The translations under genes and the position numbers were made by a program. Below, piece by piece: positions 19,564 through 47,923 of a stretch of 64,000 bases of DNA. Origin of the DNA: Kineosporia succinea. Lineage in GTDB: Bacteria > Actinomycetota > Actinomycetes > Actinomycetales > Kineosporiaceae. The notes under the pieces were generated by a model. The model did not search any database and was not told the origin of the DNA. It was given only the letters and a program-made list of their open reading frames with translations. The first letter of the stretch is position 1, and each line of letters starts with the position of its first letter. The stretch lies in contig NZ_JAUSQZ010000001.1 of assembly GCF_030811555.1 (NCBI RefSeq), positions 5,205,241 through 5,269,240 on the forward strand. Direction: 5' to 3'.

Positions 19564-19685
19564 ACCTTCGGACGATCGGTAAAGCCCGAGCCCTCTGACC
19601 TTACGCGTCGTCCGCCCGTTTCTGGGAAGCCTCGGACGCCCAGGCCTGGTCGGCGCCCCCGGTCGCGGTGCCCGAGCGGGCTCCG

Positions 19686-19960
19686 GGAGGTGGGCTTGGT
19701 GGGTGGCTTCTGGTCGTGGTGTCTGGGTGGTGGTTCCGGGGGTGGGCTTGGTGGGTGGCTTCTGGTCGTGGTGTCTGGGTGGTGGTTCCGGGGGTGGGCT
19801 TGGTGGGTGGCTTCTGGTCGTGGTGTCTGGGTGGTGGTTCCGGGGGTGGGCTTGGTGGGTGGCTTCTGGTCGCGGTGTCTGGCGGTGGATTCGGGGGTGG
19901 GCTTGGTGGGTGGCTCCTGGTCGCGGTGTCTGGGCGGTGGCTCCGGATGGCGGCCTTGGT
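19686..19960. repeat. 52-bp tandem repeat array
   Basis: The anchor TGGGCTTGGTGGGTGGC recurs at 19691, 19743, 19795, 19847 and 19898, giving steps of 52, 52, 52 and 51 bases. The first copies are almost identical, then the array decays to the right. The period is not a multiple of three and no ribosome site precedes it. Confidence 0.9.
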
Positions 19961-20120
19961 GGGTGGCTCCCGATCGGTGGCCCAGGTGGGTGACTCAGGT
20001 TGGTGGCTCAGGTCGGTGGCTCCCGGTTGGCGTCCACCGTCGTGGCTCCCGGTCGCTGTCCCCCGGGTCTGTCCACCCGGGCCGGGCCTACCCGGGCCGG
20101 GCCTGCGTCTCCGTCTGTGC

Positions 20121-20204
20121 CAAGGCGACGGCCAAGGCGACGGCCAAGGCGACGGCCAAGGCGACGGCCAAGGCGACGGCCAAGGCGACGGCCAAGGCCA
20201 CGGC
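20121..20204. repeat. 12-bp tandem repeat, seven copies
   Basis: CAAGGCGACGGC is repeated from 20121, six perfect copies and a seventh with one change. It lies between the 52-bp array and kamD. Confidence 0.92.
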
Positions 20205-20289
20205 CATGCCCAGGCTGCGCAGCCGCCCGACCCAGCACTCATTCTCCGCAAGTCTTCCTGTTTCGGAGCCCTGATGCGATGATTCTTCC

Positions 20290-21861
20290 GTGGAATCGAG
20301 TCAGAGCGCGCTGATTCGCCTGGATCCGGCGCAGGTCCGGCGGGCCCGGATGCTGGCGAGACGGGCCGGGCGCCCGATCGTGCAGCTCGCGACCACGCAC
20401 ACCACGGTCTCGGTCGAGCGGGCGACGGTCCGTCTCGCCGGTCTCGAGGGGGCCGACAGCGAGCGCGTGCCCTGGGTGAACCGCCTGGTCGACGCGGTGC
20501 GCGCCGAGGTCGGGCTGGAGCACGGCGTGGCCCTGCCGGTGTGGGACGCCCTGGTGCGCGGGCAGGCACCCGACCTGCTCACCCTGGCGCAGAAGGCGTC
20601 CACCGGTGGGGGAGGCTTCCGGATCCCGGCGGGCCGTGACGCGGTGCGAGCCCGGTCGGCCGCGAAAAAGGCCGTGGGCCTGGGCATCCGGCGCATCGAC
20701 AGCAGCCGCAAGCAGCGCGAACGGCTCATCCGCAGACACGGTGACGCCCCGCGGCGCCCCTGGATCTATCTGATCGTGGCCACCGGCGACATCTACGAGG
20801 ACATCCCGCAGGCCTGTGCCGCCGCCCGGGCCGGGGCCGACGTGATCGCGGTGATCCGCTCGACCGGTCAGAGCCTGCTCGACTACGTGCCCGAGGGGGC
20901 GACCCGCGAGGGCTACGCCGGAACCTACGCCACCGGTGAGAACTTCCGGCTGATGCGGGCCGCTCTCGACGAGGTGAGCCGTGAGCTGGGCCGTTACGTG
21001 CGCCTGACCAACTACGCGTCCGGCCTGTGCATGCCCGAGATCGCCGCACTGGCGGGCATGGAGCGGCTGGACATGATGCTCAACGACTCGATGTACGGCA
21101 TTCTGTTCCGCGACATCAACCCCGTGCGCACGTTCGTCGACCAGCGGTTCAGCCGCCAGATCCACGCCCGCGCGGGCATTGTCATCAACACTGGCGAAGA
21201 CAACTACCTCACCACGGCCGACGCGATCGAGGCCGCGCACACCGTCACGGTGTCGCAGCTGCTCAACGAGTTCTTCGCGAAGGAAGCCGGCCTGCCCGAC
21301 GAGTTGATGGGCCTGGGGCACGCTTTCGAGATCGACCCCGCGGTGCCGCAGTCGTTCCGGCTCGAGCTGGCGCACGCCCTGCTGGCCCGCACGCTGTTCC
21401 CGAAGGCGCCGCTGAAGTGGATGCCACCGACCCGTCACATGACCGGCGACGTGTTCCGCGGCCATCTGCTCGACGGGTTCTTCAATCTCGCGGGAGTGCT
21501 GACGGGGCAGGGCATTCTGCTGGTCGGCATGATGACCGAGGCGGTGGTGACGCCCTGGCTGTCCGACCGCGACCTGGCGCTCGACAACGTGCGGTACGTG
21601 CTCGACGCGTGTTCCGGTCTCACCGAGGACTTCCGGCCCCCGCCCGAGGGTTTCATCGCCACCCGGGCCCGGCACGTGCTGGGCGAGGCCCTCGAACTGC
21701 TCGAGAGAATTGTGGACGAGGGGATGCTCGCCGCCATCGCCGACGGCACCTTCGCCGGAATGCGGAGGCCGCCGGACGGTGGGCGGGGACTCGACGGCGT
21801 GGTGAAACGAGCCGACGGCTATGTGAACCCGGCGATCGAGGCGCTGGAGGTGCCGGTATGA
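20290..21861 (+). CDS. kamD: Lysine 5,6-aminomutase alpha subunit
   Basis: Large subunit (523 residues) of the adenosylcobalamin- and PLP-dependent enzyme that moves the terminal amino group of D-lysine or beta-lysine. Conserved stretches include YLIVATGDIYEDIPQA, IRSTGQSLLDYVPEGAT, GTYATGENFRLMR and NDSMYGILFRDINP. They form the TIM barrel that covers the B12 and PLP sites. The GTG start at 20290 follows CTTCC and has a poor ribosome site. An ATGA overlap couples it to kamE. With kal it indicates use of lysine through the aminomutase route. Confidence 0.95.
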   Translation: MESSQSALIRLDPAQVRRARMLARRAGRPIVQLATTHTTVSVERATVRLAGLEGADSERVPWVNRLVDAVRAEVGLEHGVALPVWDALVRGQAPDLLTLAQKASTGGGGFRIPAGRDAVRARSAAKKAVGLGIRRIDSSRKQRERLIRRHGDAPRRPWIYLIVATGDIYEDIPQACAAARAGADVIAVIRSTGQSLLDYVPEGATREGYAGTYATGENFRLMRAALDEVSRELGRYVRLTNYASGLCMPEIAALAGMERLDMMLNDSMYGILFRDINPVRTFVDQRFSRQIHARAGIVINTGEDNYLTTADAIEAAHTVTVSQLLNEFFAKEAGLPDELMGLGHAFEIDPAVPQSFRLELAHALLARTLFPKAPLKWMPPTRHMTGDVFRGHLLDGFFNLAGVLTGQGILLVGMMTEAVVTPWLSDRDLALDNVRYVLDACSGLTEDFRPPPEGFIATRARHVLGEALELLERIVDEGMLAAIADGTFAGMRRPPDGGRGLDGVVKRADGYVNPAIEALEVPV

Positions 21862-26032: not shown

Positions 26033-26634
26033 CGGGCAATGTCGGGCCGCAGCGCCGCAAGGCCGGCAAGCTGCGGTGGATCCTGGTGGCGGCCCTGTTG
26101 CTGCCGCTGCTCGAGCTGGTCGTGTCGATCGAGGTCGGCACCGTCATCGGCGGCCTGCCGGTGTTCGGGCTGCTGGTGCTCGGCTCGGTCGTCGGCATGA
26201 CGGTGGTGCGGCGGCAGGGCAGCGCGGCCTGGCGAGCGCTGAACGCGTCGGTGCGCACGGGCACCCCGCCGAGCCGCGATCTGGCCGACGCGACAGTGCT
26301 GATGCTCGCGGGAGTGCTGTTCATCTTCCCGGGTTTCGTCACCGACGTGGTGGCCCTGCTGCTGGTGCTGCCGTTCACGCGTCCGCTGGCCCGCCGCCCG
26401 CTCGAGGGCTGGTTCCGCCGGGCCGCGGCCGACCAGGCGAACATGCGGGGTGCGTACATCCGCACCGTGCAGTTCGGCCCGGGCGGCCCGCAGTCCGCGT
26501 CGGGTCCGGCCCCGGGGCAGACGACGGCCGGCCCGTCCCAGGGGCGGGGCCCGAGCCGTTTCGGCCCGGGCTTCGGCCGCGAGGACGTGATCGAGGGCGA
26601 GGTCGTCGACGGCACCCCCGACGACCGCCGCTGA
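25942..26634 (+). CDS. fxsA: FxsA family membrane protein
   Basis: Protein of 230 residues with the FxsA membrane domain at residues about 43-150: [34 protein letters not shown] and [20 protein letters not shown]. The rest is a glycine- and proline-rich cytoplasmic tail. FxsA in Escherichia coli eases exclusion of phage T7 by F; its normal function is unknown. The GTG at 25942 sits inside the end of ppm and is preceded by GGAGG at five bases, which supports this long overlap. Confidence 0.88.
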
Positions 26635-26774: not shown

Positions 26775-27115
26775 AACGAGGGACGCGCCTGTCGACGATC
26801 GCCGCTCAGGTGCCCCTCGTGTCGCTGTTCTCCACACGTGACGTGCCTGTGCGTTCGCCGTCCGGGTGCCTCTCGTGTCGCTGTTTCCCACACGTGACGT
26901 GCCTGTGCGTTCGCCGTCCGGGTGCCTCTCGTGTCGCTGTTTCCCACACGTGACGTGCCTGTGCGTTCGCCGTCCGGGTGCCTCTCGTGTCGCTGCTTCC
27001 CACAGAGACGTGCCTCTGACGCTCGCCGTCCGGCTGCCTCCTGCGTCGCCGTTTCCACGAGTGATGTGCCTGTGACGCTCGCCGGCCAGGTGCCCCTCGC
27101 GTCGCCCGTGTCCCA
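26775..27115. repeat. 56-bp tandem repeat array
   Basis: The anchor CACACGTGACGTGCCTGTGC recurs at 26833, 26889 and 26945, with diverged copies at about 27001, 27056 and 27113, so the step is 56 bases. The central copies are nearly identical and the outer ones diverge. The period is not a multiple of three. Confidence 0.9.
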
Positions 27116-27135: not shown

Positions 27136-27171
27136 TCGCTGCTTTCGATTATCGATAATCGAAAGCAGCGA
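27136..27171. repeat. 36-bp perfect palindrome, copy 1 of shared element
   Basis: Reads the same on both strands over 36 bases. The centre is TTTCGATTATCGATAATC and is AT-rich in a GC-rich genome; the outer arms are TCGCTGC and GCAGCGA. A second copy at 45185-45228 shares 25 of 26 central bases but has different outer arms that still pair. It lies between convergent fxsA and rbpA, next to the 56-bp array. A bidirectional terminator, protein site or mobile palindromic element are all possible. Confidence 0.9.
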
Positions 27172-27234: not shown

Positions 27235-27795
27235 CCGAGCAGCCAGGGGACCGCGGGGGCCGGGCGGGGCCGGGAGGGGGCCGGGAGGGGGCCAGGCGGG
27301 GCCGAGCACCCGGTGGTAGGCCAGGTCGGGTGGGTGAGGTCAGGTGGCCCAAGTCAGGTGGGGCCAGGCCAGTGGTAGGCCAGGTGGGGCTGCTAGGCAC
27401 CCCGGGCCAGGTGGGCGGGCCAGGTGAGGCGGGCCAGGTGAGGCGGGCCAGGCGGGGCCGGCCAGGCGAGGCCGGCCAGGCGAGGCCGGCCAGGCGGGGC
27501 GGGCCAGGCGGGGCCGGCCAGGTGGGTCCGGGCGGGTGGGTCCGGGCGGGGCCAGGTCAGGCCGGGCGGTGCCAGTCGGGGCCGGGCAGGGGCAGGCGGG
27601 GCCAGGCCAGCAGGGGCAGGCGGGGGCGGGGTTAGGCCAGCAGGGTCAGGCGGGGCAGGCCAGCCAGCAGGGTGAGCCGGGGCGGGGGCAGACCCACAGG
27701 GTCACAGAGGCACGCGGGGCGGGGGCAGGCCAGCAGGGGCAGGCGGGGCGGGGGCGGGCCAGACGGGTCAGGCCAGGTCAGGCGGGGCGGGCGGC
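27235..27795. repeat. G-rich imperfect repeat region (GGCCAGGCGGGG-type units)
   Basis: About 560 bases of imperfect GGCCAGG, GGGGCCGG and GGGCCAGGT units, with nearly all G runs on the plus strand. Several places have four or more GGG or GGGG runs close together, so G-quadruplexes could form. No gene is supported. Confidence 0.85.
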
Positions 27796-27925: not shown

Positions 27926-27956
27926 AGCCCGGCCTCCCCGTGGGGAGATCCGGGCT
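27926..27956 (-). terminator. Intrinsic terminator of rbpA
   Basis: Arms AGCCCGG and CCGGGCT, then CTCCCC and GGGGAG, form a stem with a two-base loop. On the minus strand the stem is followed by TTTCTC. It begins about 26 bases past the rbpA stop, in the right direction. Confidence 0.8.
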
Positions 27957-27981: not shown

Positions 27982-28332
27982 TTATGCCGAACGACGACCG
28001 TGGAAGCGGCCCGAGCGCAGCAGCGCCAGACGCTCTTCCAGCAGGGTCTCCAGTTCGGCCGTGGTGCGACGTTCCATCAGCATGTCCCAGTGCGTACGGG
28101 CAGGCTTGGTGGCCTTCGGCTCCGGCAGTTCGGCATCTTCGCGCAGGGCGAATTCACCGCAACGGCACTCCCAGAGCGGGGGCACGTCTGCTTCCATCGA
28201 CATCGGGACGACGATGGAATGCCCGTTCTTGCAGTGGTACGTGATGTCCTGACGGGCGGCCGGCTGAATTCCCGACTCGCTCTCCAGACTCGAGGCTCCA
28301 AGGCGCGTCCCGCGCATGCTCCGCTCACCCAT
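27982..28332 (-). CDS. rbpA: RNA polymerase-binding protein RbpA
   Basis: A 116-residue actinobacterial transcription factor that binds RNA polymerase and group 1 or 2 sigma factors and stabilises the open complex. ITYHCKNGHSIVVPM and PPLWECRCGEFA form the core with its cysteines; the C-terminal HWDMLMERRTTAELETLLEE and LLRSGR are the basic linker and sigma-interaction domain. ATG at 28332 has a strong GGAGGGAG site. A SigR-type promoter lies upstream at 28375-28400 and a terminator follows the gene. Confidence 0.97.
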   Translation of the reverse strand: MGERSMRGTRLGASSLESESGIQPAARQDITYHCKNGHSIVVPMSMEADVPPLWECRCGEFALREDAELPEPKATKPARTHWDMLMERRTTAELETLLEERLALLRSGRFHGRRSA

Positions 28333-44086: not shown

Positions 44087-44992
44087 GTGAGCACGACGCA
44101 GACCCCCGGATCCGATCCGAGCGCCGTGGGACGCGGACGATCGCCGGGCGCAGTCCCGGCCGCCGTTCCCCGGCGAACCGGACGGACCCGGCGTCCCCCG
44201 GTCGTCCCGAACCAGCACGGCGCCTGGGGATTCCTCGCCCTGCCCCTGGTGCTGGGGGGCGCCGCCTCGGACTGGTCGTGGTGGGTGCTCCTGCTGACGG
44301 TCGCGTGGGTGGCGGCCTATCCGAGCAGCTGGGCGGTGACCGGTCTGCTGACAGCGCGCCGTCCCGCGAGATTCCGCCGCGCGGCCCTCATCTGGATCCC
44401 GCTCTGCCTCGTCGCCGGAGTACCGCTGCTGCTGACGCACCTGTGGCTGAGCTGGGTGCTGCTCGCCTACCTGCTCCTGTTCCTGGTCAATCTCCAGCAG
44501 GCCCGGGCCCGGCGGGAGCGTTCGGTGTTCAACGACCTCGTGCTCATCGGCGAGTGCGTGCTGCTGGTCCCGGTCGTGGCCGGCCTGGCCGCCTCGTCCC
44601 CGGCCGCCTCGTCCCCGGCCGCCTCGTCCCTGGTCGCCTCGTCCCCGGCGGACCTGCCCCTCGACGCCATGACCACCGCCCCCGTCATCACTGCCCTGAT
44701 CGCCTGCGCCCTGACCCTGATCGGCAGCACCCTGCACGTGAAATCCCTGATCCGGGAACGCAACAACCCCACCTTCACCCGTCTCTCCCAGGCGTTCGCC
44801 GTGGCTTGCGTCCCGCTCATGGCCGTGACCACTCTGGTGACCGATCAGCCTTTGCTGCTGACGGTCCCGTTCGTGCTGATCGCGGTGAGGGCGTGGCTGT
44901 GGCACGACCCCGCGCTGCGTCCGTCGCTCATCGGGATGGGCGAACTGGCCGGATTCCTGGTGGTGGCGGGCACGTCGCTGGTCGTGATCTGA
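44087..44992 (+). CDS. YwiC-like membrane protein
   Basis: Integral membrane protein of 301 residues with about eight hydrophobic segments. The VVPNQHGAWGFLALPLVLGG block near the N terminus is the signature of the YwiC-like family, whose role is unknown. A repeated PAASSPAASSLVASSPA loop comes from 15-bp units at about 44590-44650. GTG at 44087 is preferred (AGGGTGG before it); GTG at 44006 is an alternative. The start diverges from the Nudix gene. Confidence 0.82.
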   Translation: MSTTQTPGSDPSAVGRGRSPGAVPAAVPRRTGRTRRPPVVPNQHGAWGFLALPLVLGGAASDWSWWVLLLTVAWVAAYPSSWAVTGLLTARRPARFRRAALIWIPLCLVAGVPLLLTHLWLSWVLLAYLLLFLVNLQQARARRERSVFNDLVLIGECVLLVPVVAGLAASSPAASSPAASSLVASSPADLPLDAMTTAPVITALIACALTLIGSTLHVKSLIRERNNPTFTRLSQAFAVACVPLMAVTTLVTDQPLLLTVPFVLIAVRAWLWHDPALRPSLIGMGELAGFLVVAGTSLVVI

Positions 44993-45070
44993 CTCGGCGT
45001 CCCGGGTGGGCCGTCGAGGCGTCCGGGCACTCGCGGCAGTGCTGCTTCAGGCGGTGGCGCGGGGGCTCAG

Positions 45071-45176
45071 CCTGGTGGGTTCAACCTGGTGGGTTCAACC
45101 TGGTGGGTTCAACCCGGTGGGTTCAACCTGGTGGGTTCAACCTGGTGGGTTCAACCTGGCGGGCTCAACCTGGTGG
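45071..45176. repeat. 14-bp tandem repeat, about 7.5 copies
   Basis: CCTGGTGGGTTCAA starts at 45071 and repeats every 14 bases to about 45176, with single changes in the fourth and seventh copies. It ends nine bases before the palindromic element. Confidence 0.93.
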
Positions 45177-45184
45177 GCAACCGC

Positions 45185-45228
45185 AACTCTGATGCTTTCG
45201 ATTATCGATTATCGAAAGCATCAGAGTT
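45185..45228. repeat. 44-bp palindromic element, copy 2
   Basis: Eighteen-base arms (45185-45202 and 45211-45228) pair perfectly around an eight-base centre TATCGATT. The central 26 bases match copy 1 (27136-27171) with one change, while the outer arms AACTCTGAT/ATCAGAGTT differ and yet remain complementary. It starts with AA and ends with TTT, so it could act as a terminator for both convergent genes. Confidence 0.9.
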
Positions 45229-45394: not shown

Positions 45395-45640
45395 GTTGCT
45401 CAGCATGGCGGCTCGAGCGCGGGCCGACTCACTGTCCAGGGTGGCGCGGCCTCGGGGCGACTCACTTTCCGGGGTGGGGCGGCTCGCTCATCAGGGTGGT
45501 GCCCCCTCGGGCCGGGTCGGTCAGGGTGGTGCTGGGTCGGGTGGGGTCGGTCAGGGTGGTGCTGCCTCGGGCGGGGGCGGTCAGGGTGGTGCTGCCTCGG
45601 GCCGGATCGGTGACCGCGACGCTGTCTCGGGCGGGCACAC
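45395..45640. repeat. 30-bp imperfect tandem repeat array
   Basis: The anchor TCAGGGTGGTG recurs at 45491, 45521, 45551 and 45581, a step of 30 bases. Weaker copies (TCACTGTCCAGGGTGG, TCACTTTCCGGGGTGG) extend left to about 45395 and right into the end of the LLM gene. There are no unique spacers. Confidence 0.85.
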
Positions 45641-46468
45641 TCAGCGCGGTGGTCCTGCCTCGATTCGGGTCATGACCTCGCGCATCTTCTCCTCGCCGTG
45701 CTGGTCACCGCCCCAGCGCGACTCCAGCCACCAGGTGGCGCCGGCCTCGACCCACGGAGTGACCATCGCGAGTGCGGCGGACCTGTCGTCTGCCGGCGTC
45801 TGGCCCTCGTGCACCACATCGAGCCCGGTGCGCCCGCGTTCGGCCAGCCAGGCGACGAGCTCACGCAGATCGGAGGGAGTGGCCTCGCGGCCTTCGCCCA
45901 GGTGGTACTCCGGGATCACGCCGTCACAGCGCAGGATGCGGTTCATCGACTTGGGGCGGGGCCAGGCCCCCACCGTCCAGATCGGGATCGGGTTCTGCGT
46001 CGTTTTCAGGCCGCCCGTGACCACCTCGGCCGCACCCGTCTGGATCCGGTAGTGCTCGCCCTCGTAGACGTTGTCGCCCCGCCAGAGTGCCCGCATCAGG
46101 TCGATGCCCTCGTCGAGCATCGCCGCGCGCTGCCTCCGGTCGGTGACCTCGCCGCTCGCACTCGGCAGGGCCGGATCGATCGCCCCGAGGCCGAGCCCCA
46201 CGACCGCCCGGCCGCCGGACAGGTCGTCGAGCGTGGCCACCTGCGACGCGAGCTTCCAGGGCCGGCGCCACGGCAGCGGCGTGAGCATCGTGCCGAGCCG
46301 GATGCGTGACGTGGACGCAGCGACGGCACTGAGCAGGCCCCAGGCATCGACACCGTACGCCGCCTCCCAGACGAAGATGCCGTCCCACCCGGCCTGCTCG
46401 GCCAGGACCGCCTGCTCGAGCTGCTGGCTCGCGGAGCCACCCGGAAGAATGAACCCGTAGCTGGTCAT
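45641..46468 (-). CDS. LLM-class flavin-dependent oxidoreductase
   Basis: A 275-residue luciferase-like protein. YGFILPGGSASQQLEQAVLA, IRLGTMLTPLPWRRPWKLAS, LDDLSGGRAVVGLGLG and PIWTVGAWPRP are typical of the coenzyme F420- or FMN-linked LLM group. ATG at 46468 is preferred to the TTG three codons upstream. Its 3' end runs into the 30-bp array and the last residues (RIEAGPPR) come from it. Substrate unknown. Confidence 0.9.
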   Translation of the reverse strand: MTSYGFILPGGSASQQLEQAVLAEQAGWDGIFVWEAAYGVDAWGLLSAVAASTSRIRLGTMLTPLPWRRPWKLASQVATLDDLSGGRAVVGLGLGAIDPALPSASGEVTDRRQRAAMLDEGIDLMRALWRGDNVYEGEHYRIQTGAAEVVTGGLKTTQNPIPIWTVGAWPRPKSMNRILRCDGVIPEYHLGEGREATPSDLRELVAWLAERGRTGLDVVHEGQTPADDRSAALAMVTPWVEAGATWWLESRWGGDQHGEEKMREVMTRIEAGPPR

Positions 46469-46584
46469 GTCCAACACCTACCAGCGACCACCGACAGTCT
46501 TGGGAACGAGCCGCTCACCGTGATGGGATGGTCCGGCCGCCGTCCGGAAACCGGGTGGTTCCTACGTCGTCCCGAGGTGCACCG

Positions 46585-47736: not shown

Positions 47737-47923
47737 GGCCGGGAGGTGAGTGGGCCGGGAGGTGAGTGGGCCGGGAGGTGAGTGGGCCGGGAGGTGAGTG
47801 GGCCGGGAGGTGAGTGGGCCGGGAGGTGAGTGGGCCGGGAGGTGAGTGGGCCGGGAGGTGAGTGGGCCGGGAGGTGAGTGGGCCGGGAGGTGAGTGGGCC
47901 GGGAGGTGAGTGGGCCGGGAGGT
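47737..47923. repeat. 16-bp tandem repeat, about 11.7 copies
   Basis: GGGCCGGGAGGTGAGT repeats without change from 47737 to 47923. It fills the gap between the convergent methyltransferase and tautomerase genes and ends five bases before the tautomerase stop. The perfect identity points to recent expansion. Confidence 0.96.

Follow-up and report, generated by a model that had tools for sequence, protein, structure and literature searches.

The window, a stretch of 64,000 nucleotides (bases 5,205,241-5,269,240 of the 8,065,021-bp single contig of an 8.07-Mb Kineosporia chromosome), contains two long palindromes with distinctive surroundings; strand is assigned here to genes only, and not to the palindromes, arrays or hairpin described with them. 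The top-scoring orthologues came from Kineosporia mesophila, K. rhizophila and K. babensis, which places the chromosome in this genus. Copy 1 (27136..27171) is a perfect 36-bp palindrome, and its coordinates and symmetry, when recomputed, agreed with the initial annotation. It lies between genes encoding an FxsA-like membrane protein on its left (26086..26634, +; Pfam PF04186) and the RNA polymerase-binding protein RbpA on its right (27982..28332, -; Pfam PF13397). Copy 2 (45185..45228), the 44-bp palindrome previously described, has one mismatched pair and is neighboured by genes for a YwiC-like protein on the left (44249..44992, +; Pfam PF14256) and a luciferase-like monooxygenase on the right (45641..46477, -; Pfam PF00296), so both copies occupy convergent gaps, as had been proposed. 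It had also been noticed that the 26-bp centres of the two copies differ at one base and that their outer arms are unlike yet paired in both, and we found this to be the case. A 22-bp conserved core is matched exactly in copy 1 (27143..27164) and with one mismatch in copy 2 (45196..45217). The longest perfect loopless arm observed was 18, whereas shuffling the mononucleotides of the window 30 times gave at most 11; allowing up to three mismatches, 100 dinucleotide shuffles put the expected number of cores at 0.00.

Absent from the initial annotation are the tandem arrays that flank both window copies on both sides. Copy 1 has a 56-bp unit repeated 5.8 times on its left (26782..27105) and arrays of 14 to 42 bp units, G-rich on the + strand, on its right (27403..27773), and no 10-mers are common to the two sides. 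Copy 2 is flanked by a 14-bp unit repeated 8.2 times on the left (45063..45177) and by 33- and 30/60-bp units on the right (45420..45635). Array-rich gaps that lack the palindrome also occur in the window, at 19564-20349 and 47737-47923, the latter with a 16-bp unit repeated 11.7 times at 100% matches.

Searching the genome for the core, TTTCGATTATCGATAATCGAAA, with up to three mismatches returned 42 sites. Of these, 33 are exact, seven carry one change, and two have a centre that is 7 bp longer, in which the halves flank a 3-base loop and the half-site spacing is altered. The repeated family suspected from two copies is therefore real and far larger than the pair in the window. A covariance model built on 40 copies, used to score 150 of the 799 candidates from a first look, recovered all 42 sites plus three degenerate ones (4830763, 6800228 and 3201237, the last of which is weak at E=0.002), bringing the family to about 45. 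The core had no match with up to three mismatches in 12 family genomes, comprising five congeners and seven others. The covariance model gave one match in the congener G001 (E=0.01), which was rejected as a true family copy as it looks like chance. Exact core matches were absent from an 84,980-species genome collection and from IMG/VR, and phage and plasmid records contained no match to the element, although the genome itself and very near relatives may be excluded from these collections; a phage, plasmid or viral origin was rejected on the lack of matches in those records. An Rfam scan of 20.5 kb around both copies yielded matches only far below gathering scores. Within the chromosome (G000), copies are locally clustered, with 11 of 42 spacings below 25 kb versus 5.0 expected (P=0.005) and clusters at 2.27-2.40 Mb, 5.23-5.40 Mb and 6.37-6.41 Mb, as if the element had spread partly locally.

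The element is a 44-bp palindrome, reaching 50 bp in its most perfect copy (6808689), and its AT-rich core is near-invariant across the 40 copies of alignment A1, which leaves out the two with 29-bp cores. Read from the core outward, the 84 half-sites follow the consensus GCA-N-C-R-nnn-TTY, in which GCA-N-C-R is nearly invariant and T occupies arm positions 10, 11 and 12 in 63, 40 and 31 half-sites, respectively. At position 4, where no base is strongly preferred, 38 of 42 copies are paired, versus 16 expected, using all four pair types; at positions 8 and 9 the paired copies number 23 and 24 of 42, versus about 11.5 expected. Pairing drops to chance at position 12 (12/42 versus 14.4 expected), with a slight excess at positions 13 and 14, and the length of 44 bp follows from this drop. 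The column frequencies of the 84 half-sites revealed no strongly conserved columns past arm position 11, and no terminal tetranucleotide tag of the GTAG/CGTC type was seen in them or in the alignment of 40 copies.

Across 20 pairs and 40 sequences, 90.8% of cells are paired, and 93 cells carry double changes versus 36 in shuffles, a value that none of 500 shuffles reached. In slid control structures, pairing was reduced to 32-46%. Of the degenerate copies, 4830763 has a core that is itself altered through paired substitutions, while in 6800228 the arms are paired and the centre is partly unpaired. Pairing thus persists in places where the sequence has changed. The initial annotation had read the covariation of the two window copies as a sign that the folded or symmetric form is what is maintained. 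Pairing is indeed kept despite changes in the arms, beyond both shuffles and slid controls, but covariation is insufficient proof of selection on the fold because template switching can restore hairpin pairing without selection, as set out in PMC8794818.

The constancy of the core could mean that the palindrome belongs to a composite site, with the core serving as a dyad bound by a protein that organises DNA or acts in segregation or regulation, and the arrays as a tolerated or useful spacer. The near-invariance of the core, and of GCA-N-C-R within the half-sites, is compatible with putative binding, and nine of the 42 copies are found no further than 400 kb from dnaA, where an even spread would give about four (a count only, from positions). 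However, binding to a duplex does not require pairing of arm positions without base preference, such as position 4, and the 7 extra bp at the centre of two copies change the half-site spacing. Since the flanking genes scanned are functionally mixed, the congeners do not have the element, and such a site gives no reason for the arrays, we regard this explanation as unlikely.

To describe gene context, 40 element gaps were compared with 472 control gaps; the two remaining copies were dropped as no gene was found on one side, although one of them (2267129) proved convergent when a longer stretch was read. Genes were predicted with a home-made caller applied alike to elements and controls, which missed RbpA, and some gaps are thus over-long. 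The RbpA gene (27982-28332) scored too low for the stricter threshold of this codon-based caller. Control stretches were chosen at round coordinates, not randomly drawn, and the second control set leaves out locus L188, which contains a degenerate copy. The element is intergenic, with one of 42 copies overlapping a weak ORF. Element gaps were convergent in 18 cases, tandem in 12 and divergent in 10, versus 70, 312 and 90 among controls. This convergent excess (18/40 versus 70/472) is significant (p=1.6e-5), and 17 element gaps were convergent when counting only ORFs of at least 240 nt. The element lies near the middle of its gap (mean offset 0.157 versus 0.25 if uniform; KS p=9e-5, n=40), with a median distance of 435 bp from its centre to a gene and a median gap length of 908 bp. 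Among the 40 of 82 flanking genes that were scanned, 36 had Pfam matches and four did not; they represent ordinary chromosomal families, with no transposase or phage protein among them. Regulon logic was rejected on the mixed functions of these 40 genes.

The initial annotation had offered a family of bidirectional terminators as one reading of the convergent placement, and we considered transcription terminators and RNA 3'-end hairpins together. The convergent excess and a tendency towards TTY in the outer arm (positions 10-12) are in line with this, as are the strong RNA hairpins of the three copies that were folded (-27.7, -29.6 and -39.7 kcal/mol). Two of the degenerate copies, both strong, also take up whole convergent gaps, the flanking genes ending 23-65 bp from the centre of the element; the third is divergent. 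The terminator reading fits only these two compact gaps, whereas the other element centres are not near a stop codon they might serve, and 22 of 40 gaps have another orientation, 10 of them divergent. As its centres lie a median of 435 bp from genes, the element is not an ordinary terminator. Beside copy 1, RbpA keeps its own GC-rich terminator-like hairpin just past the gene (27926..27956), separate from the palindrome, and thus does not depend on copy 1 for its end; a similar hairpin is found at the same RbpA site in all four congeners read. The element is moreover absent from congeners that retain the same genes. We therefore consider a terminator or 3'-end function improbable. In the congener G002, recurring hairpins of the form GGACGACG...CGTCGTCC, whose centres vary but pair, were seen at five loci (L121, L134, L160, L161 and L171), and these are possibly ordinary terminators of the genus.

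The arrays seen in the window are a property of the family. Tandem repeats, called by TRF at score 80, were found in 38 of 40 element gaps versus 23 of 472 control gaps (p=6e-39; 11/245 and 12/227 for the control sets separately), and tandem-repeat bases make up 30% of element gaps versus 2.3% and 3.8% of control gaps. In 100-bp bins, array cover is 0.05 on the element, peaks at 200 bp (0.55 left, 0.41 right), and falls to 0.09 on the left and 0.03 on the right at 600 bp. The 87 arrays have periods of 6-148 bp and a median of 4.7 copies, and their units are largely private to one locus, with 16 of 4732 12-mers seen again at another. The farther an array lies from the element, the fewer copies it has (rho -0.40, p=1e-4), while array identity shows no relation to this distance. 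The G-rich strand points outward in 58 of 85 arrays, and GC skew is greater on the right than on the left at 32 of 42 elements (p=4e-5), with averages below zero on the left and above zero on the right. This flip is present inside and outside arrays and in every gene-orientation class, whereas control gaps are flat. A longer common element or second halo motif was sought and rejected, as the matches listed contained isolated locus-pair similarities and weak 8- and 10-mers. Replication-fork direction was likewise rejected as the driver of array side, the replichore comparison giving 10:11 versus 11:6 (p=0.34, with the terminus placed opposite dnaA). Arm perfection did not correlate with array content (rho 0.09, p=0.55), and a pure hairpin cause is therefore not favoured; the independence of array side from the replichore and the three copies lacking an array do not fit such a cause either.

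Other palindromes rarely show such a halo. Arrays lie within 500 bp of 39 of 42 family members, versus two of 22 other intergenic palindromes of the same genome with arms of at least 14 and six of 51 centres of gaps of at least 300 bp. No arrays were found beside any of the three degenerate copies (n=3, one of them weak at E=0.002). A second palindrome family, CGTGATCATGCAAAG ... CTTTGCATGATCACG, provides a further comparison. It occurs in the congeners G003, taken as K. mesophila, and G005 (loci L139-L158, L125 and L127), with 32 and 51 half-site matches, respectively, and was absent from the other 11 family genomes and from a class-wide sample of 394. Its members of 44, 60 and 83 bp are modular, built from CGTGATCATGCAAAG, TGTCCCC and an GTTCTAGAAC module with their complements. 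Like the element, it is a dispersed palindrome whose variable part is paired and which has so far been seen in this genus only; unlike it, its sequence is unrelated, the middle of its short form is GC-rich, and its conserved part lies outside, not inside. It has no halo: bin cover was at most 0.05 in the 20 loci fetched, four of which had any array.

An association of this kind could also arise through target preference, with a small mobile palindrome inserting into, or surviving best in, gaps that already bear repeats. The avoidance of genes (one of 42 copies over a weak ORF) and the local clustering of copies are what such an element would be expected to show, and array-rich gaps without the element do exist: 20 were seen, 14 of them within 800 kb of control. 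Those gaps are unlike element gaps, however, in that 15 of 20 have just one array and skew is greater on the right in 10 of 20, with no flip, whereas 25 of 33 array-rich element gaps hold at least two arrays and 25 of 33 have greater skew on the right. Element-free gaps of at least 600 bp seldom have arrays (4/21 and 3/19). At none of the 23 loci with arrays on both sides do left and right arrays share a 10-mer, which argues that the elements did not land inside arrays, and target preference also sits poorly with the central position of the element and the decay of arrays on both sides. We consider it an unlikely explanation. Two-sidedness, independence of the repeat units, centrality and dependence on the core together favour arrays that grew outward over elements that landed in arrays.

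Synteny around copy 1 is good among congeners, which allows one gap to be followed. Between the stop codons of FxsA and RbpA lie 1348 bp in this genome, where arrays stand on either side of the element. The distance is 141 bp in G001 and 172 bp in G002, which have neither palindrome family and no array there, 369 bp in G003, where a weak array occurs but no palindrome, and 427 bp in G005, with a second-family palindrome and a short 7-bp array. The contrast between 141-427 bp in four congeners and 1348 bp here is what outward growth of the gap, as we propose it, would produce.

Our best reading is that a REP-like, lineage-specific element provokes local tandem duplication. We put at about even chances the proposal that this dispersed small palindrome of one Kineosporia chromosome is a local tandem-duplication hot spot. 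The arrays in G003 and G005, in gaps without the element, count against it, as do the element-free array-rich gaps, the three of 42 copies without an array within 500-600 bp, and the finding that only 20 of 40 gaps are flanked by arrays left and right (11 left only, seven right only, two neither). No protein, mobility event or change in repeat length was observed. While the association of element and arrays is observed, we infer its mechanism. The element would form a hairpin or cruciform, or a putative protein would bind its core; forks might then stall, or breaks arise, at the element, and repair or restart would copy short neighbouring stretches head to tail, causing the gap to grow outward. 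The same template switching would keep the arms paired. A putative protein acting on the core, whether to bind, cut or move the element, would explain both the constancy of the core and the species-specificity of the family. Machinery that could process such breaks exists in the host, in the form of SbcD-like and Ku genes; these are present in all six genus genomes examined, this one included, and so do not explain the occurrence of element and halo in this species alone. A stronger formulation, which we hold to be plausible but somewhat short of even, is that a natural dispersed element makes its chromosome grow minisatellites alongside it, each copy seeding unrelated arrays outward with the G-rich strand leading away, and that the effect is lost when the core changes.

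To our knowledge, the birth of tandem repeats in bacterial genomes is poorly understood. In this genome, the same 44-bp sequence stands at the centre of about 40 independent trials, and three altered copies and the palindrome of sister species serve as comparisons. If the relationship is causal, one cloned oligonucleotide would be enough to test minisatellite birth and hairpin-provoked duplication directly, and the family would be a natural case where covariation may stem from template switching, not RNA function. In the literature searched, mostly without subscription papers, we found nothing on this element or on a dispersed natural palindrome family with array halos.

Among known systems, REPs are often species-specific. 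Like REPs and REPINs, which are described as short, hairpin-forming, extragenic and present in many copies per genome (PMC3733652, PMC3116915), the element is intergenic, dispersed and many-copy (42 to 45 sites). Of the readings in the initial annotation, a non-autonomous palindromic element comes closest, but the partner such an element might depend on did not appear: the RAYT profile (Y1_Tnp, PF01797) had no matches in the genome, while five of 14 control genomes were positive, and a RAYT partner was accordingly rejected. This, the lack of a conserved tag beyond the arms, the mostly loopless centre and the locus-specific array halo set the element apart, and we think it very unlikely that it is a REP/REPIN-type element moved by a RAYT transposase. 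REPIN tandem clusters, according to PMC3116915, repeat the REPIN plus its flanks, whereas here neighbouring sequence repeats without the element. Hairpin maintenance by template switching, as treated in PMC8794818, resembles our case in that double changes can stay paired with no selection for a folded RNA, but alone explains neither the invariant core nor the arrays. In E. coli, chromosomal palindromes are hot spots of breaks and rearrangement, as studied with SbcCD (PMC4245961). Although the palindrome there is 460 bp, about ten times longer than the element, its instability may serve as an analogue of how the element would work.
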